Shown one piece after another: positions 13,596-21,210 of a stretch of 64,000 bases of DNA. The position numbers were made by a program, and so were the translations under genes. This DNA comes from Pontibacter fetidus (GTDB lineage: Bacteria > Bacteroidota > Bacteroidia > Cytophagales > Hymenobacteraceae), in the NCBI RefSeq assembly GCF_010119545.1, contig NZ_JAAEAA010000007.1, positions 124,001 through 188,000 of the forward strand, written 5' to 3'. Positions within the stretch are counted from its first letter, which is position 1; every line of letters begins with the position of its first letter. Under the pieces are notes generated by a model. The model saw only the letters and a list, made by a program, of their open reading frames with translations, searched no databases and had not been told where the DNA came from.

Positions 13596-14837
13596 CTATA
13601 GCGCTAACAGGCTAAACAGGCTTTGCTTGTTATTCAGGTAAACGAAGGTGTAGCCATTACGCAGCATTTTTTTCTCCACGAGCTCAAAGTGCTCTTTCTC
13701 TTTTACCTCAATGGCAATTACAACGGCGCCTGTCTCGCGGCTGTGTTTTTTTACATACTGGAAGTAAGTGATGTCGTCTGTCGGAGTCAGGGTGTTATCC
13801 AGAAATTCGCGTAAGGCTCCGGCCCGCTGGGGGAAGTTCACCACAAAGTAATGCTTCAGACCCTCGTACAATAAGCTGCGCTCTTTTATTTCTTCCATCC
13901 GGGTAATGTCGTTGTTGCTGCCGCTAACCACGCACACCACATTTTTGCCTTTTAATGCTGGGGCGTAAACTTCCAGGGCTGCAATCGTAAGGGCTCCGGC
14001 GGGTTCCACTACCATCGCTTCTTCGTTATACAAACGTAACATGGTGCTGCATACCAAACCCTCGGGCACCGGTACTACCTCATGCAGCCTGCTTTTACAG
14101 ATCTCAAAAGGAAGATCACCCACACGTTTCACCGCAGCACCATCTACAAACTTATCAATCTCCTGCAAAGTAGTGTTCTCACCATTTTGGATGGAAGTCT
14201 GCATCGAAAGCGCACCCTGGGGCTCCACACCAATTATCCTGGTTTCCGGGCTCAATTCGCCAAACACCGTGCATATACCCGCCGCCAAACCGCCGCCGCC
14301 AATCGGGACAAACAAATAATCGATGGGCGCTTTGGCATCAGCCAGTATTTCGAGGGCAACTGTGCCCTGGCCGGCAATAACCAGTTCGTCATCAAAAGGG
14401 TGGATAAAGGTCATCTGGTTTTCTTCGCAATACTGGCGGGCCATACCCGAAGCATCATCAAACGTGTCACCTATCAGCACCACTTCCACCTTGTCTTTCC
14501 CAAACAATCTTACCTGTTTCACCTTCTGAGATGGGGTAGTCTGGGGCATAAAAATAACGGCCGGGATATTCAATTTCCGGCAGGCGTAGGCTACGCCCTG
14601 CGCATGATTCCCGGCACTGGCACATACCACGCCCCGGTTCCGGTCTGCGTCAGAAAGCGATGCTATTTTGTTGTAAGCGCCCCGCAGTTTGTAAGAGCGT
14701 ACAGGCTGCAGGTCTTCTCTTTTCAGGTAAACCTGCGCCGAAAATTCCTCGCTCAGGTTGTTGTTTCTGGTGAGGGGCGTGTGCAGGGCTACGCCTTTCA
14801 GTGTTTCCCTGGCCTCGTAAATTGTTTGTAGCTGCAT
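13596..14837 (-). CDS. ilvA: Threonine ammonia-lyase (threonine deaminase)
   Basis: 413 residues from the preferred ATG. Converts threonine to 2-oxobutanoate and ammonia with PLP, the committed step to isoleucine. The PLP lysine is in RSYKLRGAYNK (K50), the phosphate-binding loop is the IGGGGLAAG segment, and a single C-terminal ACT-like regulatory domain (about 330-413, containing FPQRAGALREFLD) would bind isoleucine/valine. An upstream ATG at 14894 is in frame, but it would begin inside an 8-bp hairpin next to the ilvC stop, and homologues begin near MQLQTIYEARETL, so I chose 14837. Last gene of the ilv operon, 63 nt after ilvC. The TAG stop is part of a CTATAG palindrome. Confidence 0.93.
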   Translation of the reverse strand: MQLQTIYEARETLKGVALHTPLTRNNNLSEEFSAQVYLKREDLQPVRSYKLRGAYNKIASLSDADRNRGVVCASAGNHAQGVAYACRKLNIPAVIFMPQTTPSQKVKQVRLFGKDKVEVVLIGDTFDDASGMARQYCEENQMTFIHPFDDELVIAGQGTVALEILADAKAPIDYLFVPIGGGGLAAGICTVFGELSPETRIIGVEPQGALSMQTSIQNGENTTLQEIDKFVDGAAVKRVGDLPFEICKSRLHEVVPVPEGLVCSTMLRLYNEEAMVVEPAGALTIAALEVYAPALKGKNVVCVVSGSNNDITRMEEIKERSLLYEGLKHYFVVNFPQRAGALREFLDNTLTPTDDITYFQYVKKHSRETGAVVIAIEVKEKEHFELVEKKMLRNGYTFVYLNNKQSLFSLLAL

Positions 14838-14858
14838 GTTACGTTCGATACTAAAGGA

Positions 14859-14893
14859 TGCCAGGCACTCCATCCCGGATAAAGCGCCTGGCA
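14859..14893 (-). other. Intercistronic stem-loop between ilvC and ilvA
   Basis: TGCCAGGC (14859-14866) and GCCTGGCA (14886-14893) are perfect 8-bp arms around a 19-nt loop, with no T run. It may stabilise or process the mRNA between ilvC and ilvA; no terminator function is apparent. Confidence 0.5.
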
Positions 14894-14900
14894 ATGGTTT

Positions 14901-15944
14901 TTACTTTTTAGGTCTGAGCTGGCGCACCTGAACTCCCGTTTGCCATAGTTCGCTGTTGCGCAGGTCGGCAAGTTCAACTTCCAGTTTCTCGCGGTAATCT
15001 GGCTGGCTGTTGGCGCTGATCACGATCTCGGCTTCTTTTCCGGCGGCGACGCTGTCGTATAGTTCGGTAAACAAGGGTTCGGTAGCCTCCTGGAAGCGGC
15101 CTTTCCAATCCAAAGCGCCACGCTGGGCGGTAGTCGAGCAATTGGCATACATCCAGTCCATCCCATTTTCCGCTACCAATGGCATCAGGCTTTGGGTCAG
15201 TTCTTCCACCGTTTCGTTGAACGCTTCGCTGGGGCTATGTCCATTTTTGCGCAGCACATTGTATTGTGCTTCAAATAGGCCGGCTATGGCACCCATCAAC
15301 ACGCCACGCTCGCCTGTTAAGTCGCTGTATACTTCTTTTTTAAATTCCGTCTCGAACAGGTACCCGCTCCCGATAGCTATACCCAGTGCCAATGCCCGCT
15401 CTTCGGCTCTGCCGCTGGCGTTCTGGTACACGGCATAGCTCGAATTGAGTCCCTGGCCCTGCAGGAAAAGCGAGCGAAGCGAAGTGCCGGAGCCTTTGGG
15501 CGCCACCAGAAAAACATCCACATGAGCAGGCGGAACGATCCCGGTTTTTTCATGAAATGTAACCCCAAATCCGTGGGAGAAGTACAGCGCTTTGCCTTCG
15601 GTCAGGTGTTTCGAGACAACCGGCCACGCAGCAATTTGCCCAGCATCCGATAGCAGGTTCAGCAGTATCGTTCCGCGCTGGCAGGCTTCTTCCAGTTCAA
15701 AAAGTGTTTCTCCTTCTAACCATCCGTCTTTCAGAGCTTTGTGCCACGATGCCGAATCTTTGCGCTGGCCCACGATCACATTAATTCCGTTATCGCGCAG
15801 GTTCAATGCCTGACCGGGGCCCTGTACCCCATACCCCAGTACAGCTATAGTTTCGTGTTGTAATACCTTCTGCGCTTTCGAAAGCGGGAATTCATCGCGG
15901 GTAACTACGTTTTCGAGTACTCCGCCAAAGTTTATTTGTGCCAT
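14901..15944 (-). CDS. ilvC: Ketol-acid reductoisomerase
   Basis: 347 residues. Converts 2-acetolactate and 2-aceto-2-hydroxybutanoate to the dihydroxy acids with NADPH and Mg, in the valine/isoleucine pathway. The N-terminal Rossmann domain shows ETIAVLGYGVQGPGQALNLR (about 31-50) with a basic NADPH loop VGQRKDSASWHK, and the HGFGVTFH segment; the C-terminal KARI domain carries the metal-binding acidic residues (DLTGERGVLMGAIAGLFEAQ, then E residues of FNETVEEL). Length is close to other Bacteroidota enzymes. Fifth gene of the operon, separated from ilvN by a 251-nt spacer that contains a long inverted repeat. Confidence 0.95.
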   Translation of the reverse strand: MAQINFGGVLENVVTRDEFPLSKAQKVLQHETIAVLGYGVQGPGQALNLRDNGINVIVGQRKDSASWHKALKDGWLEGETLFELEEACQRGTILLNLLSDAGQIAAWPVVSKHLTEGKALYFSHGFGVTFHEKTGIVPPAHVDVFLVAPKGSGTSLRSLFLQGQGLNSSYAVYQNASGRAEERALALGIAIGSGYLFETEFKKEVYSDLTGERGVLMGAIAGLFEAQYNVLRKNGHSPSEAFNETVEELTQSLMPLVAENGMDWMYANCSTTAQRGALDWKGRFQEATEPLFTELYDSVAAGKEAEIVISANSQPDYREKLEVELADLRNSELWQTGVQVRQLRPKK

Positions 15945-16195: not shown

Positions 16196-16438
16196 CTATA
16201 GTTTGCTACCTTCCTTCAGCTTCGCATCTGCCACTTCAATAATCCGTTTTAGTTGCGGGATAACTTTTTGCGCCAGTTCCTGGCTTATGTCTGCTGACAC
16301 AGAGATCAGGCTTAGTTCCTGAAGGGCATTTGCACGTAAATTTAAAGTCATGATGTTTACCCTGTTGCGGGTAAATACCGTGGTTACTTTTTCCAGCACG
16401 CCTATCTTGTTTTCGGTGTAAATTTTTAAGGTCTGCAT
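16196..16438 (-). CDS. ilvN: Acetolactate synthase small (regulatory) subunit, single ACT domain
   Basis: 80 residues from the ATG at 16438. The ACT domain (MQTLKIYTENKIGVLEKVTT) binds valine and confers feedback inhibition on the catalytic subunit encoded just upstream. Enterobacterial IlvH has a second domain of about 80 residues, absent here; IlvN-length subunits of this size are known. An in-frame ATG at 16468 would overlap ilvB and add ten residues ([10 protein letters not shown]) upstream of the conserved ACT start, so I reject it. The gap to ilvB is 10 nt. The TAG stop is embedded in CTATAG. Confidence 0.9.
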   Translation of the reverse strand: MQTLKIYTENKIGVLEKVTTVFTRNRVNIMTLNLRANALQELSLISVSADISQELAQKVIPQLKRIIEVADAKLKEGSKL

Positions 16439-16448
16439 AGGTTCATAT

Positions 16449-18209
16449 TTATTCGAGTAACATGCCATCTACTGCCGCGCCGGTAGGCATCATCGGAAAT
16501 ACATTTTCCTCGTTCTCCACTAGCACATTTAACAGGAAAGGCCCTTCGCTTTGTAGCATTTGCTGCACGGCTCCGGGCAGGTCTTCGCGTTTCTCCACCC
16601 GTAGCGCCTGTATCCCAAATGCTTTGCTAATCTCGGTGAAGTCCGGGTTTTCCATTTTCACGAAAGAGTAGCGACCATCAAAGAACATGTTCTGCCATTG
16701 GCGCACCATCCCCAAAAAATTGTTGTTCAGCACCATCACTTTCACAGGTACTTTGTACTGGGCTATAGTTGCCAGTTCCTGTATCGTCATCTGGAAACAG
16801 CCGTCTCCGATCACTGCCACAATCTCGCGGTCCGGAGCTCCTGTTTTTGCCCCCAAAGCAGCAGGCAGGGCAAAGCCCATGGTGCCCAAACCTCCGGAGG
16901 TGAAGTAACTTTTGCGTTTCCGGAAAGGGTAGTAGCGCGCTGCCATCATCTGGTGCTGGCCAACATCGGCGATCACCATTGCTTCGCCGCTCGTCTGCTC
17001 ACCCAGTACCTGGATCACCTCTGGCATCGTTAGTTTTTCTTTGTTCGGGTACAGCGCATTCCGGCGTACTTTTTCTTCTTCCTGGGCATCCAGTTTCGCA
17101 AACTCATTTAGCCACATTGGATGTGAGTTGGTGTTAAGCAAGGGGGTGAGTTCCTCAAGTATAGCTAAGGCATCACCAAGTAATGGCACATCCGCTTTAA
17201 CAATCTTGTTTAACTCAGAAGGGTCTATTTCGATGTGGATGACCTTGGCCTGCTTCGCATAAAAGTTCAGGTTTCCGGTTACGCGGTCGTCGAAGCGCAT
17301 GCCTACGGCCAGCAGCACATCGGCCTGGTTGGTGAGCAGATTGGGCGCATAGTTGCCGTGCATACCCAGCATACCCACATAAAGTGTGTGGCTGGTTGAA
17401 ATACACGACAAGCCGTGCAGAGTGCAGGCGACAGGTGTTTCTGTTTTCTCTGCCAACTGGAGCAAAGCTGTCTCCGCACCAGCAATGCCTACTCCGTTTC
17501 CGGCCAGTATCAGCGGGCGCTGCGCTTCGTTCAGCAAGGTAGCGGCATCCTGCAGGTTCTTCCTGGTAAAGCCCGAATCAGTTCTATAGTAGGGCAATTG
17601 CGTTACAGGCGTATAACGAAATGGCTTTTTAAGCTCTGCAAACTGGGCGTCTTTAGTAACCTCTATCACTACCGGACCGGGTTTGCCGCTTCGGGCTACA
17701 TAAAAGGCTTTTGCCATCGCGTCGGCCACTTCATCGGCATCGGTTACCTGGTAATTCCATTTGGTTACTGCCGCACAAACACTCATAATGTTGGCTTCCT
17801 GAAAAGCATCTGTTCCTAACAGCCCCGAACTTACCTGGCCTACCACACATACCATCGGCACACTGTCCATCAAGGCATCGGCCAAGCCGGTTATAAGGTT
17901 TGTAGCGCCGGGGCCGGAGGTCGCAAATACCACCCCGACTTTTCCGCTTGCCCTTGCATATCCTTCGGCGGCGTGGGTAGCTCCCTGCTCGTGGCGTACC
18001 AGGATGTGGTTTACCTTATGGTTGAAATCGTAAAGTGCATCATAGATCGGCATGATCGCCCCGCCCGGATAACCAAAGATGGTTTCTACGCCCTCGGCTA
18101 CCAGGCTGCGCATCACAGCTTCGGCGCCGGTACAGGTACTTTTAGCGGTCGGTGAGGCAGCCTTCTGAGGCACAGCCAACTTGTCTGGCGTATTTGTATA
18201 AGATTCCAT
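16449..18209 (-). CDS. ilvB: Acetolactate synthase large (catalytic) subunit
   Basis: 586 residues. ThDP-dependent condensation of pyruvate with pyruvate or 2-oxobutanoate, first common step to valine and isoleucine. The N-terminal domain has [16 protein letters not shown] with the catalytic glutamate region ([20 protein letters not shown]), a central FAD/DHS-like domain, and a C-terminal ThDP domain with [20 protein letters not shown] and [12 protein letters not shown]. The start at 18209 lies 68 nt inside the end of ilvD; no other ATG precedes the conserved [19 protein letters not shown] segment, and the AAAGTTAAAA context supports it. Forms an operon and an enzyme with ilvN. Confidence 0.95.
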
Positions 18210-19821
18210 TTTTAACTTTTAAAGGTGGCTGATTCCAGTTCTGTTTTCTGTTTTCGAGGGATTGGTCATCTACCAGCAGGTTAATTTTCCGGTTCAGGAT
18301 GTCGAGCTCGATGGTATCACCATTTTGTACCAACGCCAGCGGCCCGCCATCAAAGGCTTCAGGTGAAATGTGCCCCACCACAAAACCATGGGTGCCGCCG
18401 CTGAACCTTCCGTCGGTAATCAGGGCTACTTTATCGCCCAGGCCGGCGCCCATAATGGCAGATGTGGGTTTGAGCATTTCGGGCATGCCGGGGCCGCCTT
18501 TCGGACCTACATATCGGATCACAACTACACTGCCGGGCATGATCTCTTTGCTGGAAAGGCTGTGCATCAGGTCGGCTTCGCTGTCGAATACCTGGGCTGT
18601 TCCTTTAAAGTATAAACCTTCTTTGCCGCTTATCTTGGCCACACAACCTTTCGGACTCAGGTTTCCATACAATACCTGCAGGTGACCTGTGTCTTTAAGA
18701 GCGCGGGTAAGAGGCCTCACCACATTTTGTTTTTCAAAATCCAAATCCAAAACATCCTGTAAATTTTGTTCTATTGTTTTACCTGTCACCGTCAGGCAAT
18801 CGCCGTGCAAAGAGCCTTGCTGTAACAAGTACTTAATTACAGCTGGCACACCACCTACCTGGCACAAATGCTCCATCAGGTATTTTCCGCTTGGTTTTAA
18901 GTCAGCCAGTACCGGGGTTCTGTCACTGATATGCTGCACATCGGTTTGAGTTAGTTCCACTCCGGCGGTGGCGGCAATGGCCAGCAAGTGCAGCACAGCG
19001 TTGGTGCTTCCGCCCAGCGCTACCACCACCGTCAGGGCATTTTCCAGCGATCTCCGGGTGATGATGTCGGACGGTCTTAGGTTCAGTTCGAGCAGGTGCA
19101 GCATGGCTTTTCCAGCGTTCAGGCATTCGTCTTTTTTGCCTTCGCTCAGGGCAGGTAGGGAAGAGGAGTAAGGCAAACTCAAGCCCAGCGCTTCGATAGC
19201 CGCCGCCATGGTATTGGCTGTGTACATTCCGCCGCAAGCACCGGGCCCGGGACAGGCATTTTCGATCACACCGCAGTAATCTTCCCTGGTTATTTTACCT
19301 GAAAGCTTCTCTCCCAGCGCCTCGAATGCCGAAACAATATTTAGCTCTTTGCCTTTATAGTTGCCAGGCGCTATCGTACCACCATAGATCATCAGGGAAG
19401 GGCGGTTTAAGCGTGCCATGGCCATCACGGCACCGGGCATGTTTTTGTCACAGCCGGCTACAGCTACCAGGCCATCGTAGTAATGGGCAGCACAAACTGC
19501 TTCTATCGAGTCGGCTATCACTTCGCGGCTTACAAGGGAGTAGCGCATCCCATCGGTTCCGTTGGTAATGCCATCGCTGATGCCGATGGTGTTAAAGATT
19601 AGCCCTACCTGTTGCTGAGCGTTCACTCCGTTTTTTACCAGAGCGGCCAGTCCGTTGAGGTGCATGTTGCAGGTGTTGCCGTCGTAACCCATGCTGGCGA
19701 TGCCTACCTGCGGTTTTTTGAAGTCGCTTTTGGTAAGGCCCACCCCGTGCAACATGGCTTGTGCTGCCGGCAGGGTATCGTCCTGGGTAAGTGTCGCGCT
19801 GTATTTGTTTAAGTGGTTCAT
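18142..19821 (-). CDS. ilvD: Dihydroxy-acid dehydratase
   Basis: 559 residues, normal length. Fe-S dehydratase making 2-oxoisovalerate and 2-oxo-3-methylvalerate. Cluster cysteines are visible in [27 protein letters not shown] and near the C-terminal substrate site; [25 protein letters not shown] is the conserved C-terminal block. The C-terminus ([18 protein letters not shown]) matches the family's natural end, so the 68-nt overlap with ilvB is real and not a misread stop. Follows ilvE by 67 nt. Confidence 0.95.
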
Positions 19822-19888: not shown

Positions 19889-20776
19889 TTATCTTGCTAC
19901 AGATTCAGGCTGTGGTTCCCGTACCAGTTTGGAGTAGCGTTCCTGTAGTTTTTTACCAAGCGATTCCGACCAATCCAGCGGAAATCTATAGTTGTCTAAC
20001 TGCGCGATGCCTATGATCTCGGCTGCCGTTCCGCAGTAAAAGGCGCTGTCGGCTGTTTTCAATTCTTCTGGGGTAAACTGTTTTTCTTCGCAGCTCAGGC
20101 CAAGTTCTGCGCACATTTCCAGTACGGTGGCGCGGGTGATGCCGGGCAGGATGTTGCCCAGGGCAGGCGTAAACAGTTTGCCATCTTTTTCCATGAACAG
20201 GTTGGCCCCGGGGCCTTCGGCTACAAAGCCAGCCGCATCCAACAGCAGCGCTTCGTCGTAGCCGTTTTCTTTGGCATGCACTGTGGCCAGTATAGAATTG
20301 ATGTAGTGGCCGGTTACTTTAGCTTCCACATGCACCGATTTGGGGTTAGGGCGCTGGTAGGGTGAAGTACACAGGTTCAGCATTTTATCACCCAGGTAAG
20401 CGCCCCATTCCCAGGCCGTGATCAGCAGGTTAACGCCGGTCGGTTTGCTCAGGCTCATGTTGGGTTCCAGGTATACCACCGGGCGCAGGTAGGCATCCTG
20501 CAGGTTGTTCTGGGCCAGCACCTGGTACGAGGCATCCACCAGTTCTTCCACCGAATAATCAAGCGGGATGTGGATCAGGTCACAGGATTTCTTCAGGCGT
20601 TCGTAGTGCTCTTTTGCTTTAAATATGCTGGTTCCGTTTGCGGTAGCGTAAGAGCGGATACCCTCAAAAACACCGTACCCATATTGCAGTGTCTGGCTGT
20701 AAAGGTCACCGTTGGCTTCTATGGCCTTTACCATTTTTCGGTTCAGGTAAACTACTGTGTTGTTGTTGTAATACAT
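19889..20776 (-). CDS. ilvE: Branched-chain amino-acid aminotransferase
   Basis: 295 residues from the ATG at 20776. PLP-dependent fold-type IV transaminase catalysing the last step to isoleucine, valine and leucine. Family motifs include [12 protein letters not shown], the PLP lysine in [37 protein letters not shown], and [11 protein letters not shown]. An in-frame ATG at 20854 is rejected because it lies within the attenuator hairpin and would add residues unlike the family. First structural gene of the operon, directly after the second attenuator. Confidence 0.95.
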
Positions 20777-20840: not shown

Positions 20841-20873
20841 AACAAAAGCGCCATCCTTGTTGGGGATGGCGCT
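20841..20873 (-). terminator. Attenuator 2 (terminator) before ilvE
   Basis: On the minus strand AGCGCCATCC, loop CCAACAA, GGATGGCGCT (perfect 10 bp) followed by TTTGTTTT. It sits between leader peptide 2 and ilvE. CATCCCC in its 5' half (forward 20862-20868) is complementary to GGGGATG inside leader 2 (forward 20906-20912), giving an alternative antiterminator of 7 bp. Confidence 0.85.
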
Positions 20874-20896
20874 CAGCTGTTTTCTATAGTTTAGTT

Positions 20897-20980
20897 TCAG
20901 CAATACATCCCCCGCGCGATCGGAATAATCACGATAATAATAATGCTGATAATGATCATGGTGCTGTGCAAGCTGTTCAT
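20897..20980 (-). CDS. Ile-rich leader peptide 2 of the ilv operon
   Basis: 27-residue ORF beginning MNSLHSTM, then a run containing ten Ile codons and one Val within about fourteen codons (IIISIIIIVIIPI), and ending ARGMYC. This is the classic pattern of an attenuation leader: scarcity of charged Ile/Val tRNA stalls the ribosome in the run. The codons just after the run (Arg-Gly-Met) form the strand that can pair with the following terminator. It resembles leader 1 in layout (Ile runs, Pro, Gly-Met-Tyr/Tyr-Met-Cys end), indicating a tandem duplication. No signal for other function. Confidence 0.8.
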   Translation of the reverse strand: MNSLHSTMIIISIIIIVIIPIARGMYC

Positions 20981-21021
20981 CGGGGTATGGTTGCTTATGG
21001 TTGTTGCTATAGTTGGGTTAA

Positions 21022-21051
21022 ATAAAAAAGGCCGCCCTAGTGGGGCGGCCT
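21022..21051 (-). terminator. Attenuator 1 (terminator) between the two leader peptides
   Basis: On the minus strand AGGCCGCCC, loop CACTA, GGGCGGCCT (perfect 9 bp), followed by TTTTTTATTT. Its 5' half CCGCCCCACT (forward 21039-21048) can instead pair with AGTGATGGGCGG in leader 1 (forward 21097-21108): ten base pairs with a 2-nt bulge. That gives a textbook antiterminator. Confidence 0.88.
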
Positions 21052-21080
21052 CTATGCTATCTTCAGTTTTATACTTCCAA

Positions 21081-21170
21081 TTATATGCACATATATCCGC
21101 CCATCACTGGTGAAATAATCACCGCGATAATAATAGAGCGAATAATAATTTGTGCAGCTGTGTTTTTCAT
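21081..21170 (-). CDS. Ile/Val-rich leader peptide 1 of the ilv operon
   Basis: 29-residue ORF beginning MKNTAAQ, followed by Ile-Ile-Ile-Arg-Ser-Ile-Ile-Ile-Ala-Val-Ile-Ile, then SPVMGGYMCI and TAA. The Ile/Val run lies 5' of a Met-Gly-Gly segment whose RNA is complementary to attenuator 1. A Bacteroidota -7 box (TACCTTTG) ends only 7 nt before the ATG, so the transcript may begin at or a few bases before the start codon and be translated almost leaderless. The ORF is far below the usual annotation cut-off. Confidence 0.85.
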   Translation of the reverse strand: MKNTAAQIIIRSIIIAVIISPVMGGYMCI

Positions 21171-21177
21171 GATGGCA

Positions 21178-21210
21178 CAAAGGTATAAGTATTATTTCTT
21201 AAGATGCAAA
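21178..21210 (-). promoter_or_regulatory. Promoter of the ilv operon
   Basis: On the minus strand TTTG (forward 21207-21210), 21 nt, then TACCTTTG (forward 21178-21185), an exact TAnnTTTG -7 box as used by the Bacteroidota primary sigma factor. It lies directly upstream of leader peptide 1. Confidence 0.7.

Follow-up and report, generated by a model that had tools for sequence, protein, structure and literature searches.

Our analysis of a 64,000-nucleotide stretch of the Pontibacter fetidus genome (NCBI RefSeq assembly GCF_010119545.1, contig NZ_JAAEAA010000007.1, positions 124,001 to 188,000; hereafter the window, in which all coordinates are counted) suggests that the ilv operon located there is preceded by two complete ribosome-mediated transcription attenuators arranged in series on one transcript, a reading to which we assign a probability of about 0.82. 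It rests on the anatomy of the region, on its conservation, on the base pairing between leaders and terminators, and on the modelled dependence of this pairing on the position of the ribosome.

Upstream of ilvE, the minus strand carries two short open reading frames (ORFs) packed with isoleucine (Ile) codons, and a strong intrinsic terminator stands behind each of them. Leader peptide 1 (21170-21081; 29 residues, MKNTAAQIIIRSIIIAVIISPVMGGYMCI) contains the Ile run IIIRSIIIAVII and is followed by terminator 1 (21053-21027); leader peptide 2 (20980-20897; 27 residues, MNSLHSTMIIISIIIIVIIPIARGMYC) contains the run IIISIIIIVII and is followed by terminator 2 (20874-20846). Both terminators consist of an 11-pair stem and a T tract, and the z-scores of their folds relative to 200 shuffles are -4.95 and -5.09, respectively. 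Within leader 1, 3' of its Ile run, the candidate antiterminator strand AGTGATGGGCGG (21108-21097) pairs with CCGCCCCACT (21048-21039) of the 5' arm and loop of terminator 1, forming ten pairs with a two-base bulge, and within leader 2 the corresponding strand GGGGATG (20912-20906) pairs with CATCCCC (20868-20862) in terminator 2. An earlier note on this DNA had described the two ORFs, the terminator behind each and both pairings, and all of these were found again. A unit detector, which looks for short ORFs having Ile, valine (Val) or leucine (Leu) at no fewer than 6 of 8 residues and a terminator close behind, returned these two units alone when applied to both strands of the window, and no unit in six dinucleotide-shuffled copies (one strand each). 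A T-box or riboswitch reading was rejected, no known RNA family, T-box or other, matching anywhere in the window at Rfam gathering scores.

From this layout we infer the transcription start, the translation of the leaders, the coupling of ribosome and polymerase, the in-series logic and the physiological response. RNA polymerase would start just 5' of leader 1. With charged Ile-tRNA available, the ribosome would traverse the Ile run and cover or melt the antiterminator strand, terminator 1 would form and transcription would end; with Ile-tRNA scarce, the ribosome would halt in the Ile run, the strand downstream of it would pair with the 5' arm of the terminator, and the polymerase would pass. 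Unit 2 would repeat this decision ahead of ilvE-D-B-N-C-A, so that read-through would require both gates. Such a double lock would multiply leakage down and about square the fold-response, and two gates may sharpen the response or cut leakage. Coupling of ribosome and polymerase in Bacteroidota, extending at least across the first hundred bases, is likewise suggested by this layout.

In order to model a stalled ribosome, the RNA ending before the 3' arm of the terminator was folded with a ribosome set at each codon. Until the A site moves beyond Ile 19, which is the last Ile of the run in both leaders, the modelled pairing of the terminator 5' arm with the leader is ~0.65 in unit 1 and ~0.59 in unit 2, and it drops to 0.09 by codon 21 and to 0.02 by codon 22, respectively. 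Hence, in the model, the antiterminator strand of either unit is free with the ribosome on the control codons and blocked once the ribosome has moved past, and the attenuation logic invoked in the earlier note agrees with a pairing that depends on the modelled ribosome position. Comparison of own with swapped partners, using 67 representatives of 98 units after removal of near-copies, yielded a mean of -10.7 kcal/mol for leader tails with their own terminator arm versus -7.9 kcal/mol for swapped arms (0 of 20,000 permutations), with the two window units ranking 1 and 3 of 67. The stall model, when run with swapped arms on 94 representatives of 165 units (near-copies likewise removed), gave 0.71 for the own and 0.56 for the swapped arm.

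A Bacteroidota-type promoter match (21210-21178, minus strand), consisting of TTTG (21210-21207), a 21-nt spacer and TACCTTTG (21185-21178), ends 7 nt ahead of the ATG of leader 1. It would place the transcription start right before leader 1, the mRNA of which would thus be nearly leaderless; two weaker matches from the same scan are located 40 and 46 nt 5' of this ATG. No match of this type is present within 130 nt upstream of leader 2. More generally, a promoter-like site was detected 5' of 34 of 76 first units versus 1 of 22 second units (shuffle expectation 20 of 98), so that second units apparently have no separate start. We turned to the Bacteroidota pattern because a scan with the sigma-70 consensus, which found 11 promoter-like sites versus 13.0 in shuffles, was no better than chance. 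Upstream of the promoter match, inspection by eye revealed a perfect 15-pair hairpin on the minus strand (21458-21425; AAAGCCCGCTTATTT, loop, AAATAAGCGGGCTTT) with a T-rich tail, which is probably the terminator of the preceding transcription unit.

Leaders and antiterminator pairing are both kept in relatives, and it was their absence there that had been named beforehand as the outcome speaking against the proposal. The closest relative found (genome G010, which is outside the listed genomes of our 390-genome draw from the order) shares both units. Between the two genomes, the block reaching from leader 1 through terminator 2 is identical at 316 of 332 aligned bases (plus 8 gap columns), whereas identity amounts to 105 of 184 bases 5' of the promoter and, at fourfold sites, to 95 of 136 in ilvE and to 169 of 266 in ilvD. 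Leader 1 is identical at 87 of 90 bases with all 3 changes being synonymous, leader 2 is identical at 77 of 84 bases with every Ile codon kept, terminator 2 is identical throughout (35 of 35 bases), and so is the promoter -7 box. In antiterminator 1, one double change from A-U to G-C distinguishes the window genome (G000) from G010, and one adjacent pair is lost; the partner of the doubly changed pair sits in the terminator loop, where it is free of the constraint of the terminator stem. A search with the window unit sequence in the 390 genomes of the order matched 14, that is, the window at full length and 13 pieces of ~29-42 bases. This comparison bears on the alternative that one unit alone works as a gate and that the other is a leftover of duplication adding a fixed termination site: the units do resemble each other as after a duplication (104 aligned identical bases at lengths of 151 and 142, z 7.1 relative to shuffled copies), and leader 2 differs from its counterpart in G010 by 4 amino-acid changes (all outside the Ile codons) and leader 1 by none, but both units are conserved far above the fourfold sites, terminator 2 without exception, and the antiterminator strand is kept in both, which makes this alternative unlikely.

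The control codons, too, fit the pathway. The best 12 residues of the run comprise 8 Ile and 1 Val in leader 1 and 9 Ile and 1 Val in leader 2, with no Leu in either; the earlier description of runs packed with Ile and Val codons is therefore correct for Ile and overstated for Val. An IlvD match was obtained in 27 of 50 genomes of the same genus, and LeuB scored above cut-off in 25 of the 50; among the 27 IlvD-bearing genomes, LeuB above cut-off is missing only in G000, G010 and the incomplete G007. The runs of the window and of G010 are devoid of Leu, and in the remaining 14 tandem loci of the genus, which are leuB-bearing, the runs contain it; it is the joint absence of LeuB and of Leu codons in G000 and G010 that indicates the fit. 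The remaining 23 genomes of the genus are without an IlvD match, and G000 and G010 possess IlvD without LeuB above cut-off; auxotrophy thus appears likely to be patchy in the genus, with G000 likely being a leucine auxotroph.

In the 14 loci, Leu is higher in the second run in 8 and lower in none (6 ties), and Val is higher in the first run in 6 and lower in none (8 ties), a trend which is only a hint because these loci are kin and thus not independent. Such a shift would be expected if the two gates read different amino acids, forming an AND of Ile/Val with Ile/Leu. Gates of that kind are compatible with two working attenuators, so that the odds overlap with those given above; for the window, where both runs are Ile runs without Leu, we regard them as improbable. 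In L036, L039, L042 and L046, leuB is located ahead of the first leader at a distance of 7 (L036) to ~180 nt, behind leuC- and leuD-like ORFs, and read-through from leu into ilv would, with leuB just 5' of the first leader, also cross the gates. Moreover, a short motif pair (about TTAGAGATTGTA and TTTAGAAATAGTA) was seen by eye to recur before ilvD in L034, L036, L040, L049, L055, L150 and L151, even where a leader is absent, and is a possible operator.

When the strict detector was applied to the 27 ilv loci of the genus (window included), 16 scored two units, 4 one and 7 none (0 of 216 in shuffles, 0 of 27 on the reverse strand). Two doubtful rows were retained in the counts: the only unit of L056, which makes an unconvincing leader, and, in the phylum sample below, the first unit of L203, which looks like the tail of another gene. 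Among 94 other loci (79 named records and 15 members of the order; the named loci come from the top 80 of at least 596 stretches with a match, with L078 omitted as too short), 6 have two units, 50 have one and 38 lack any (0 of 752 in shuffles, 2 of 94 on the reverse strand), and the six doubles belong to Chryseobacterium (two), Ignavibacteriae, Tenacibaculum, Lutibacter and Aquimarina records. A sample across the phylum, for which 120 regions were taken of 135 genomes with an IlvD match, yielded two units in 6 regions (one of them doubtful), three in 1, a single unit in 52 and no unit in 61, as against 0 of 600 in shuffles and 1 of 120 on the reverse strand. The named loci may overlap with the other genomes, and the counts of the three samples are therefore not to be added. 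The triple arrangement (L206:1866-2230; genome G668, family code f26) consists of three leader and terminator units before ilvE, the second and third of which are identical at 108 of 119 bases and are evidently a recent duplication. On an IlvD tree with 114 proteins (of 121 loci scanned, L057, L120, L128, L130, L132, L136 and L142 were lost, none of these 7 being tandem), the two-unit label needs 12 changes, at least 9 of which are forced by well supported branches; gains and losses of doubling are indistinguishable on this tree, and the window pairs with G010, apart from the remaining loci of the genus. The doubled switch, seen in many relatives, looks like a double lock that was kept and not like an accident. 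The same distribution bears on the view that the ORFs encode functional small hydrophobic peptides instead of control peptides. They are short, strongly hydrophobic and rich in Ile, and in this respect presumably resemble Ibs-like type I toxins; however, many genomes across the phylum have such ORFs upstream of ilvE or ilvD, together with terminators and pairing strands, and other leaders of the window genome hold tryptophan (Trp) and histidine (His) runs instead, leaving this view with very little probability.

Several observations weigh against two serial attenuators. First, a strong 1:2 protector hairpin is not evident in the model, in which the pairing without a ribosome is still 0.56 and 0.59 for units 1 and 2; a classical four-segment attenuator of the trp type was rejected on this ground, and the model predicts that loss of a leader start codon would raise read-through and not abolish it. 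Second, the pairing lost at the stop codon in part simply reflects the smaller amount of RNA remaining, and the margin of the window units over swapped terminators in the stall model is small (0.47 versus 0.43, and 0.59 versus 0.52). Third, own terminators reach a median rank of only 12 among 67, and one unit in ten ranks at 52 or beyond. Fourth, among first units of the genus type (unit A; 18 sequences), the antiterminator helix exhibits 93.9% pairing with no double changes and no excess over shuffles, as compared with 2 doubly changed pairs in the terminator of this unit; of the compensatory changes sought by the earlier note, there is thus the one A-U to G-C exchange between G000 and G010, and none in the genus-type first units. 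Fifth, seven of the 27 genus loci score no unit, although on closer reading L034 does have a first unit and L040 a short leader of the second type. Sixth, 5' untranslated regions (UTRs) of less than 10 nt are rare in Bacteroides (~3.7%; PMC7366714), so that the near-leaderless start of leader 1 remains putative. Finally, replacement of candidate regulatory codons 5' of ilvB in Streptomyces coelicolor was without effect (PMC1262725).

One may ask, tentatively and at somewhat less than even odds, whether Bacteroidota tune their amino-acid operons by the number of serial units, which would be copied in tandem, kept as double locks and re-coded to the pathway, the number of gates representing an evolvable dial for leakage and steepness. 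A cue for re-coding is the lack of Leu in the runs where leuB is absent. Such tuning would need tight coupling of ribosome and polymerase in a phylum which is described as being without Shine-Dalgarno sequences (PMC9723704). Serial gates for the same amino acid also pose a question of design, that is, whether they provide less leakage, a steeper response or merely a cost in expression, and related genomes offer natural loci in which the number of units ranges from zero to three.

Downstream of the two units, the minus strand carries ilvE (19889-20776) as the first gene of the operon, ilvD (18142-19821), ilvB for the large subunit of acetolactate synthase (16449-18209), ilvC (14901-15944) and ilvA for threonine deaminase (13596-14894), all identified by NCBIfam. 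An ATG in the frame of ilvE at 20854 falls inside terminator 2 and is hence unlikely to be the start of this gene. The order ilvE-ilvD-ilvB-ilvN-ilvC-ilvA given in the earlier note is upheld for these five genes; the sixth, a probable ilvN for the small subunit (16196-16468, minus strand, 90 residues), has no NCBIfam match at 1e-10, its name being inferred from position and an ACT-like look. Elsewhere in the window genome, a single leader with a strong terminator (L169:685-870; NQNLHLTAWWWHVTK..., containing AWWWH) precedes a gene for a chorismate-binding enzyme, probably trpE, and a single his leader (L171:1153-1320) ending in AAHVHHFHHSS, with the run HVHHFHH, precedes hisG, with a short hairpin and T tract behind it that were recognized by eye and in a fold. 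Among the six loci of this genome that were scanned, doubling is confined to ilv.

Leader-peptide attenuators are well known from the ilv, leu and his operons of enteric bacteria, and candidates in Bacteroidota were reportedly described by Vitreschak in 2004. With the enteric attenuators, as represented by trp (PMC3641672), the units of the window share (i) a leader peptide rich in the amino acid of the pathway, (ii) an intrinsic terminator and (iii) an alternative antiterminator. They differ in that two full units stand in series, the antiterminator strand resides inside the ORF, no clear 1:2 protector emerges in the model and the first ORF would, should the promoter match hold, be almost leaderless. 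Within the phylum, 'strong clues' of leader-peptide attenuation were reported upstream of amino-acid operons in Flavobacterium psychrophilum (PMC9723704), and long 5' UTRs of Bacteroides contain short ORFs 'reminiscent of leader peptides', with several putative ones in the 5' UTR of BT_4401 (PMC7366714); attenuation is proposed in these transcriptome papers on F. psychrophilum and B. thetaiotaomicron, the available parts of which describe no doubled amino-acid attenuator. Two ORF-controlled attenuators in one leader likewise occur in Salmonella mgtCBR (PMC3641672), where they respond to two different signals without intrinsic terminators; an arrangement of this type was rejected for the window, since both runs are Ile runs and both units possess intrinsic terminators. 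Two ribosome-mediated attenuators are also found in the mefA/msrD operon, the authors of which propose that the 'double-lock' avoids basal expression (PMC10314930); there, the signal is a macrolide and the second attenuator serves msrD alone, whereas the two units of the window lie side by side ahead of the first gene. Among the matches listed in the literature on tandem or double attenuators and on leader peptides of Bacteroidota, of which the coverage of print is incomplete, no tandem ilv attenuator was found. For Bacteroidota, leader-peptide attenuation in itself is no novelty; what we rate as new is the serial arrangement of amino-acid attenuators which read the same signal, each with a terminator of its own.
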